From Ahrensia marina (GTDB lineage Bacteria; Pseudomonadota; Alphaproteobacteria; Rhizobiales; Rhizobiaceae): a stretch of 64,000 nt of DNA. The notes beneath the pieces were generated by a model. The model ran no database searches. It was not told where the DNA came from and saw only the letters and a list, made by a program, of their open reading frames with translations. Both the position numbers and the translations under genes were made by a program. The stretch lies in contig NZ_JXMU01000017.1 in assembly GCF_001293565.1 (NCBI RefSeq), positions 1 through 64,000 of the forward strand. The letters are read 5' to 3'. Positions 36,314-38,372 of this stretch are shown here, piece by piece. Position 1 is the first letter of the stretch, and every line of letters begins with the position of its first letter.

Positions 36314-36362
36314 TTAGGTATTGACCTAACTATTGATAAGTGATAGTTAGGCATATGCCTAA
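36314..36362 (+). promoter_or_regulatory. arsR promoter with nested palindromic operators
   Basis: A -35 box TTGACC (36321-36326) and a -10-like TAGTTA (36344-36349) are 17 bases apart. Three inverted repeats of a CCTAA/TTAGG half-site overlap them: TTAGGT-ACCTAA (36314-36319/36324-36329), CCTAACTAT/ATAGTTAGG (36325-36333/36343-36351) and the perfect 16-bp palindrome TTAGGCATATGCCTAA (36347-36362) that contains the start codon. The geometry puts the transcript start at or next to the ATG. Confidence 0.72.
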
Positions 36363-36699
36363 ATTAGATCAGCCTATAGAACATACTTTCAACGCACTTT
36401 CCGACCCGACGCGGCGTGCAGTGATTCAGACATTAAGCAACGGTCCGGCATCAGTCTCGCAACTCGCCGGTTCATTCAGCATGGCGTTGCCATCATTCAC
36501 CCAGCATCTCGGTGTTCTGGAAAATGCAGGTCTTATTGTGTCGCACAGAGAAGGACGCTCACGTATCTGCTCGTTAAATCCCGCAGCTTTGCAAAATGCA
36601 GAAGATTGGCTCGCTTCATCGCGGCGTCAGTGGGAGGCGCGTCTGGATCGCTTTGAAGCCCATTTAGCGAATATGAAAGAGGAAAAATCAAATGAGTGA
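36355..36699 (+). CDS. ArsR-family repressor
   Basis: The 114-residue product is an ArsR/SmtB winged-helix repressor of the type paired with SRPBCC proteins: FNALSDPTRRAVIQTLSNGP, SVSQLAGSFSMALPSFTQHL and a C-terminal helix. No metal-binding CxC motif is seen, so it is probably not a metal sensor. The ATG at 36355 is favoured; an in-frame codon at 36340 falls inside the promoter. The transcript may be leaderless. The stop overlaps the next gene by eight bases. Confidence 0.92.
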   Translation: MPKLDQPIEHTFNALSDPTRRAVIQTLSNGPASVSQLAGSFSMALPSFTQHLGVLENAGLIVSHREGRSRICSLNPAALQNAEDWLASSRRQWEARLDRFEAHLANMKEEKSNE

Positions 36700-37198
36700 A
36701 CACGCAAACAGTGCCGCATCAGCATGGGCCACATGGCCTTTAGAGAGAGAAGTTGTCATTGCGCGTGTCGTGGATGCAGACCGGCAAACCGCTTTCCGCG
36801 CGTGGTCGGATCCGACACAAATCGTCAAATGGTTCGGCCCCGAAGGTTTTGAACTTGAAACCCATGAGATCGACATATGTGCGGGCGGCGTATGGCGGTT
36901 TGATATGAAGGCACCGGACGGAACGCTATATCCAAACCGCATGGAGTTTCTACGTATTAAAGAGCCAAACCTGATCGAACTAAGCCACGGTACCGACAGC
37001 GATGACGATCCTGATCGTTTCCAGATGCTTGTGACCTTTGACGAACAGAGCAACGGCAAAACGGTCGTTACATTACGCCAGATGCATCCGACAGCGGAGC
37101 GTCGTAACATTGTTATCGGATTTGGCGCGGTTGAATATGGTGCCCAGACACTGGATAAGCTTGCTGGTCACATTGCGAGAAAATCTGCCGCTGCATAG
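36692..37198 (+). CDS. SRPBCC / AHSA1-like domain protein
   Basis: The 168-residue product has a START/Bet v1-like fold of the AHSA1 group: REVVIARVVDADRQTAFRAW, then SDPTQIVKWFGPEGFELETH and a C-terminal helix. Such proteins usually bind small hydrophobic ligands; the ligand is unknown. It overlaps the arsR gene by eight bases and forms a standard ArsR-SRPBCC operon. It is the last gene before the sdhB repeat array and is convergent with sdhB. Confidence 0.92.
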   Translation: MSEHANSAASAWATWPLEREVVIARVVDADRQTAFRAWSDPTQIVKWFGPEGFELETHEIDICAGGVWRFDMKAPDGTLYPNRMEFLRIKEPNLIELSHGTDSDDDPDRFQMLVTFDEQSNGKTVVTLRQMHPTAERRNIVIGFGAVEYGAQTLDKLAGHIARKSAAA

Positions 37199-37592
37199 CA
37201 GCGACGGCAAAAAATACGATTATGAACGCCGTTTACACGCGGCGTTCAACCATCATCTTTTTGAGCTCAGTACACGCGACGCCCGCAGCAGCAACGCTGC
37301 GAGGACGCGCAAACAATAAATTGCGATTGCCTTTTATACGCGCCGCTCGACCATCATTTTCTTGACTTCCGCGATCGCCTTCGTCGGGTTCAGGCCTTTC
37401 GGACACGCTTGGGCGCAGTTCATACATGCAGCGCCCGCAGATACGAAGTATCGAGGACGTGCAAATCAAAAACAAAGATTATGAACAGCGCTTACACGCG
37501 GCGCTCGACCATCAGCCTTTTGACTTCGGCACACGCGGCGCCCGCAGCAGCAACGCTGCGAGGACGCGCAAACAATAAATTGCGATTGCCTT
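37199..37592 (-). repeat. Array of sdhB 3'-end copies and covarying hairpins
   Basis: Downstream of sdhB, a block of about 209 bp is repeated at a period of 259 bp (37214-37422 and 37473-37681; the second copy is the true sdhB end and its trailer). Four tails ending in V-E-R-R-V-stop can be read on the minus strand: the true one at 37593, one ending at 37334 (29 codons, [13 protein letters not shown] and [11 protein letters not shown]), and shorter ones near 37491 (AEVKRLMVERRV) and 37229 ([11 protein letters not shown]). The long copy differs from sdhB mainly at third codon positions, while the adjoining spacer of about 54 bp is identical. Hairpins lie at 37288-37300, 37440-37452 and 37547-37559. 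No integrase or transposase gene is in the window. Confidence 0.85.
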
Positions 37593-38372
37593 TTATACGC
37601 GCCGCTCAACCATCATTTTCTTGACCTCCGCAATCGCTTTCGCCGGGTTCAAGCCTTTCGGGCACGCCTGCGCGCAGTTCATGATCGTATGGCAACGATA
37701 CAAACGGAACGGGTCTTCCAGATCGTCCAGACGTTCACCGGTTGATTCGTCACGTGAATCAATCAGCCAGCGATAGGCTTGCAGCAGTACCGCAGGGCCG
37801 AGATAGCGGTCGCCGTTCCACCAATAGGACGGGCAGGACGTTGAACAGCAAGCACATAAGATACATTCATAAAGGCCGTCCAGTTTCTGGCGGTCTTCAT
37901 GGCTCTGCTTCCATTCTTTTTCAGGCGCAGGCGTCGTTGTTTTAAGCCACGGCTCGATTGAACGGTGCTGGGCGTAAAAATTTGTCAGGTCCGGCACAAG
38001 ATCTTTGACAACCGGCAGGTGCGGCAAAGGATAGACTTTCACCGTACCGTTAACTTCGTCCATACCCTTGGTACAGGCGAGCGTGTTGGTGCCGTCAATA
38101 TTCATCGCGCAGGAACCGCAAATACCTTCGCGGCATGAACGGCGCAGCGTCAACGTCGGGTCGATCTTGTTTTTGATATATAAAAGACCGTCGAGCACCA
38201 TCGGGCCGCAATCATCCATATCAACATGATAGGTGTCGATTGTCGGATTGGCATCATCGTCCGGCGACCAGCGATAGATACGGAATTCACGAATATTCTT
38301 CGCACCTTCCGGCTTCGGCCATGTCTTGCCTTCCGACATGGTGGAATTTTTTGGAAGTGTCAGTTCAGCCAT
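37593..38372 (-). CDS. sdhB: Succinate dehydrogenase iron-sulfur subunit
   Basis: SdhB carries electrons from FAD to quinone through three Fe-S clusters at the cytoplasmic face of the inner membrane. The 259-residue product has the [2Fe-2S] ligands [21 protein letters not shown] written across about residues 70-90 (CREGICGSC is the core), and the second set [12 protein letters not shown] with [14 protein letters not shown]. The ATG at 38372 with GAGGACG ahead is chosen over a longer frame to 38423. It is the last gene of sdhCDAB. The last 11 codons read [11 protein letters not shown], and these are repeated downstream. Confidence 0.97.

Follow-up and report, generated by a model that had tools for sequence, protein, structure and literature searches.

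We analyzed a 64,000-nt stretch of Ahrensia marina DNA (Rhizobiaceae; contig NZ_JXMU01000017.1, positions 1 to 64,000; hereafter the window), in which sdhB, encoding the iron-sulfur subunit of succinate dehydrogenase, is followed by further copies of its own 3′ end with hairpins between them. Three hairpin cores, re-read in the sequence at 37288-37300, 37440-37452 and 37547-37559, share the flanks GCCCGCAG and CGAGGACG, exactly as an earlier note made from the sequence alone had described them. That note had also pointed to matched changes on the two sides of the stem. The window alone is weak proof of this, since copies 1 and 3 lie inside one 216-bp direct repeat (37208-37423 and 37467-37682, 89% identical), leaving only two independent hairpins. 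The exact flank pattern occurs three times in the A. marina genome, always within the window, indicating a low spread within this genome. Overall, our analysis of relatives and viral contigs leads us to regard the hairpins as parts of gene-less, non-autonomous integrative units that are probably related to inoviruses and would insert as folded single-stranded DNA (ssDNA).

A covarying hairpin recurs among relatives

The full hairpin spans about 39 nt, longer than the earlier note gave, and is best read on the minus strand, where each of the three window copies has the form TTTGNN-CGTCC-T-CG-stem-C-T-GCGG. It folds into a variable outer stem, a T·C mismatch, a C-G pair, a bulged T, a variable inner stem and a short loop, a shape seen most clearly in five of the seven folded sequences, and its foot is conserved as TTTG. 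Seven copies from several genera show both-sided changes at 7 of 14 pairs; in 26 distinct copies, mostly from Rhizobiaceae, this rises to 10 of 14, with 89% of cells paired. None of 500 shuffles reaches the observed covariation, and slid partners pair in 31-65%. The stem is thus kept by covariation beyond chance, and the matched changes, along with the selection on a folded strand that the earlier note had suggested, hold up once copies from outside the window are considered. Rfam at gathering threshold gave no match in the window, and in 10 loci only rRNA and tRNA.

A covariance model built from seven copies matched 46 of 151 relatives at E ≤ 0.05, and of 38 additional genomes, almost all of them congeners, 22 carry the hairpin. 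Head-to-tail arrays with a fixed period of 46-124 nt are frequent among the model matches. About 49 loci are verified by a flanking pair of gene-end copies, and the weakest model matches are unverified. The search that the earlier note had proposed therefore found more copies, whose variants keep the stem pairing, and its idea of a mobile repeat with copies beside other genes is borne out by units at several gene ends in relatives. At sdhB, a hairpin followed by a copy of the gene's own 3′ end also occurs in Mesorhizobium sp. Z1-4, Jiella endophytica and a Rhizobiaceae metagenome-assembled genome, with the same insertion core (core 2) in use; a congener of the window genome (G002) has no hairpin at sdhB. 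A class-wide search with the model returned one clear copy outside the order (L167, at tRNA-fMet).

The other class-wide matches (L168-L176) show no duplicated gene end and look like chance, as does a match in Treponema (L058); at high G+C the generic pattern CGTCCTCG..CTGCGG likewise gave mostly chance matches. BLAST searches of plasmids and phages matched mainly the target genes and recovered no whole unit. Three further arrangements stand apart. A mobilizable Paracoccus albus plasmid carries a similar intergenic hairpin (L178, 8004-8028) with no recognizable unit around it. An order-level relative (G286) contains an array in which hairpin cores recur every 46 nt, with no gene end among them (L157, 1174-1578); we excluded this array from the family, and it may be one more derivative or else a tandem repeat unrelated to the units. 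In G018, two hairpins 51 nt apart precede one gene end (L097, 1501-1591), an array step lacking its gene-end copy.

Units insert at a core inside gene ends and replace the end

Each unit consists of a gene end (X), an arm (armR), a T-rich linker of usually 7-10 nt and the 39-nt hairpin, in this order, for a usual length of about 100-125 nt; nested units, as in the window, are larger. A second copy of the gene end (X′) begins at the same core position as X, usually 0-3 nt past the hairpin. In every target class X begins at a core inside the gene and extends as far as the gene boundary, and the similarity of X and X′ ends at or near that boundary. Among protein genes, sdhB, mmsA and ilvC are targeted at their 3′ ends, and glyS, hisF, hisA and the citramalate synthase gene at their 5′ ends. 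RNA-gene targets comprise the 5′ end of tRNA-fMet and the 3′ ends of tRNA-Ile, tRNA-Gln and a tmRNA-like gene, the last without an ARAGORN call. The hairpin strand is always directed away from the gene, and is thus sense at 3′-end targets and antisense at 5′-end targets, which favours ssDNA over RNA as the functional form. No genes are found inside the units, which have no coding capacity and so cannot encode an integrase of their own. At 5′-end targets the spacer often supplies a purine-rich stretch ahead of the restored start codon, which we read as a putative Shine-Dalgarno sequence.

The 5′ end of tRNA-fMet is a recurrent target (L099, L111, L114, L132, L133, L139, L167). At L133 it adjoins 5S and 23S rRNA, and some units may sit in rRNA operons.

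Unit-free congeners in three genera provide empty glyS sites. Compared with these, filled sites carry an extra block of 115-123 nt, and the native flank continues directly after X′. Insertion is thus precise, at the core inside the gene end. Because the native flank resumes right after X′, X′ is the native end that was displaced, and the gene is now served by X; it is strongly supported that X restores a complete gene end. One glyS unit has no displaced X′ (L202/L229, G144) and represents a decay intermediate.

The arm matches the target core

Across the 49 verified loci, armR is usually 7-13 nt long, usually ends 7-10 nt before the hairpin and is complementary to the target core over a stretch of about −4 to +6 relative to the insertion point. 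Arms match their own targets' cores: the mean score is 8.3 for the own target versus 4.4 for the cores of other targets, and 46 of 49 loci lie at or above the 95th percentile. Pairing with the host gene itself is tested only by a few bases on the left, the core's right half being part of X and so of the unit. The total score of 406 compares with at most 262 in 200 permutations. Moreover, among alleles of the same target, the arm prefers its own in 34 cases versus 9. Complementarity to sdhB core 2 is shown for three further loci that use this core as well (L056, L057 and L059). We tentatively consider, as a possibility we would not yet favour, that the units form a new class of mobile DNA, about 100-125 nt long and devoid of genes, in which a short complementary arm next to a phage-type hairpin sets the target. 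Their single-stranded, self-guided insertion would repair the gene, and they would be retargeted by changing the arm and the gene end.

The hairpin is shared with filamentous phages

The pattern CGTCCTCG-N-CTGCGGGCG-NN-CGG/GCG occurs at 32 loci in viral contigs. Zot is encoded by 18 of the 32 contigs, and the Zot contigs scanned also encode a secretin (pIV) and a G2P-type replication protein, a gene set that identifies them as filamentous phages. Most phage hairpins take the same mismatch-and-bulge fold as those of the units. In several phages the hairpin tops a longer inverted repeat, resembling what armR and the start of X′ can form in a unit. Among loci found by Zot alignment, with a threshold at which fewer than one chance match is expected, the hairpin is present at 35 of 78 and in every case on the strand opposite to Zot; since the alignment seeds carried the hairpin, 35 of 78 is biased as a frequency, and the strand constancy is unaffected. 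Both the identity of the unit hairpin with the phage hairpin and the phage kinship of the units are strongly supported. The units contain no inovirus genes (Zot, coat or Rep), and hence are not inoviruses but at most derivatives or satellites.

Three phage hairpins (L243, L249 and L245) start within 40 nt of where the secretin gene ends. The packaging signal of Ff phages is located directly behind gene IV. By analogy, the phage hairpin may be a packaging signal, with an origin function as the alternative.

The remaining 14 pattern contigs lack Zot, secretin and replication protein genes and look like chance matches. Strict TTTG patterns gave, in viral contigs, either no matches or matches with neither the fold nor a Zot-type context. 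Some inovirus loci carry tRNAs as well. In one phage group (L280, L283, L286, L288, L289 and L292) the hairpin is preceded by a strongly conserved TACGTTAAGTGTCCCTGATATAAAT-like stretch, which could be a dif-like attachment site.

Proposed mechanism and competing explanations

Filamentous phages carry a matching hairpin that is conserved between their genes, and the units are therefore most probably non-autonomous derivatives of integrating inoviruses, or satellites of them. A unit would enter a conserved gene end at its internal core. There the crossover would join the gene to X, which leaves the gene with a complete end, and would attach the displaced native end X′ to the 3′ foot of the hairpin. 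Tandem arrays would arise when further units insert at that core or when copies recombine with each other. The units would travel and insert as folded ssDNA in the manner of the hairpin attP of CTXφ; a tyrosine recombinase, be it the host's Xer or one encoded by a phage, would connect the folded site with the core, and an inovirus would probably act as helper. An ssDNA substrate has precedents: the single-stranded CTXφ genome is reported to integrate through the dimer-resolution system (PMC3089051), and integron integrases are reported to recombine single-stranded with double-stranded partners (PMC4792948).

Several points weigh against this phage-derived scheme. No autonomous, full-length parent was found, every verified locus being a mini form. 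The phage hairpins have neither the TTTG and T-rich linker nor a demonstrated target-matched arm, no convincing gene ends were found in inovirus contigs, and the packaging-signal idea draws on position in three contigs and on Ff biology. In genera g92 and g17, where the comparison of X and X′ with the empty alleles is otherwise neutral, the two are closer to each other than X is to those alleles, so that X may be of local origin there. Codon positions speak for the scheme: differences between X and X′ fall at first, second and third positions 65, 57 and 148 times, and such a third-position excess would follow if another functional allele had supplied X, although decay of X′ also inflates these counts.

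The g92 and g17 loci bear directly on local duplication, which is unlikely yet fares best among the rivals. Here the hairpin would have inserted by the gene and X would have been copied locally, by template switching or as a very long target-site duplication, with unequal exchange building the arrays and no gene end imported. X and X′ share lineage-specific bases in these two genera, and several X/X′ pairs are identical. However, in each target class the duplicated length is exactly that between core and gene boundary, a match not predicted by local copying. Furthermore, the X/X′ differences in sdhB and mmsA are mostly synonymous, and in genus g98 it is X′ that is nearer the empty allele (39-40 of 45 positions, versus 35 for X).

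We consider it rather improbable that the hairpins are repetitive extragenic palindromes (REPs, or their mosaic BIME form) or IS200/IS605-derived palindromes moved by a Y1 transposase (TnpA or RAYT), with armR as a long guide pairing with the cleavage site. Such elements share with the units a bulged hairpin with a guide 5′ and a junction 3′ of its foot (PMC6006769), and the earlier note had raised a link to a TnpA-REP-type enzyme. This link finds no support: Y1_Tnp (PF01797) is absent from 18 of the 22 hairpin-bearing genomes, and the foot of the hairpin bears no GTAG tag (the GTAG/GTGG guide of REPs). Where such elements have a tetranucleotide, the units have a separate arm of 7-13 nt, set 7-10 nt off the hairpin. 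They have a single hairpin, none standing at the left end, form head-to-tail arrays that carry the gene end along, and are associated with filamentous phages.

Very improbable, in our view, is an integron-like origin, in which the hairpin would be an attC-type site, as the earlier note had also suggested, and an integron integrase would have placed X-armR-hairpin cassettes at secondary sites. A folded strand with an extrahelical base, cassette-like tandem growth and weak genomic sites do recall attC cassettes (PMC3518468). Yet none of 28 genomes from genera with the hairpin has a match above the cut-off of the integron integrase model TIGR02249, no RYYYAAC/GTTRRRY ends show in the position composition of 53 copies, the conserved R′ core of attC is not seen, and the crossover falls at the hairpin foot and not in the stem.

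Equally remote is the notion that the units are decayed end scars of large elements integrated by a double-strand tyrosine integrase (integrative and conjugative or mobilizable elements, or prophages): these likewise use a core in a conserved gene end, restore that end, displace the old one and accrete in tandem, tRNA and gene ends are classical attachment sites and several inovirus loci carry tRNAs, but the units show near-constant arm-linker-hairpin spacing, identical tandem copies and no larger version among verified loci, have no coding capacity, combine a hairpin with an inverted core copy, and use 5′ ends too.

Relation to known elements

CTXφ-type inoviruses integrate as ssDNA and have satellites such as RS1 and TLCφ. 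Like the units, these phages and satellites show a conserved hairpin and tandem arrays, and in the units a folded attachment site, its basal stem equal to the target, would act as CTXφ attP does. They differ in size and targeting: CTXφ-type phages span kilobases and use dif, whereas the units have no genes, measure about 100-125 nt, use many gene ends and carry a replacement end. The CGTC-tagged REPs of Alphaproteobacteria (Di Nocera 2013, PMC3733652) resemble the units in being short CGTC palindromes with no known transposase. These REPs have an unpaired CGTC tag, stems of 8-9 bp, loops of 4-5 nt, a CCA tail and a high copy number (PMC3733652); in the units, by contrast, CGTC is paired within the stem, copies per genome are few, and they are tied to gene ends.

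A narrow search of the open literature, which did not cover subscription papers, found no prior description of such units; the earlier note had missed the target-complementary arm, the restoration of gene ends and the filamentous-phage hairpin. We regard the units as a new variant among integrating, inovirus-related elements, and as a class of their own if the arm is a true guide. If this is correct, few of the integrating mobile elements known so far would be as small, and the reshaping of essential gene ends in Rhizobiaceae would be tied to filamentous phages. The units offer a natural case of a short complementary DNA arm that appears to set the insertion site, and a testable model of gene-less parasites exploiting a phage hairpin. 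They would also account for unannotated repeats next to glyS, hisF, ilvC, sdhB and other genes.

Layout of the sdhB locus

From the order of cores, arms and tails (Table 1), we read the window as a putative 259-nt type-2 unit (core ATC^ATGAAC) with a nested type-1 unit (core GCG^ATTGC), the 259-nt composite apparently being present in about two diverged tandem copies.

Table 1. Features of the sdhB locus in the window
Feature	Position	Strand	Basis or remark
sdhB, succinate dehydrogenase iron-sulfur subunit, target gene	37593..38372	-	present X is its 3′ end
Core 2 in sdhB, ACGATC^ATGAACTGC, putative type-2 unit entry ~37683/37682	37668..37688	-	sequence
Core 1 in sdhB, AAAGCG^ATTGCGGAG, putative type-1 unit entry ~37635/37634	37626..37640	-	sequence
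armR1 AGGCAATCGC, complement of core 1, ~9 nt ahead of hairpin 1	37582..37591	-	
Hairpin 1 (type 1)	37534..37572	-	folding, covariance model, covariation
Displaced short sdhB tail 1 (AEVKRLMVERRV*)	37492..37530	-	sequence
armR2 GTTCATAATC, near-complement of core 2	37477..37486	-	complementarity by sequence reading
Hairpin 2 (type 2; GATAC-GAA-GTATC variant)	37427..37465	-	folding, covariance model, covariation
Displaced long sdhB tail, begins at core 2, 29 residues	37334..37423	-	
armR1, second copy	37323..37332	-	sequence
Hairpin 3 (type 1)	37275..37313	-	covariance model
Displaced short sdhB tail 3, 12 residues	37233..37271	-	
armR2, second copy	37218..37227	-	sequence
Possible decayed fourth hairpin, weak	37187..37208	-	folds no better than shuffles, z −1.06

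The stem-loop that follows the outermost armR2 overlaps the end of a convergent gene (stop codon at 37196-37198), and may be what is left of a fourth hairpin, decayed and now taken into the coding end of the neighbour. This neighbouring open reading frame (36692-37198), convergent to sdhB, is in turn overlapped by a regulator-like reading frame at 36340-36699; by eye, the pair looks like an ArsR-type repressor with an SRPBCC/Aha1-like partner.
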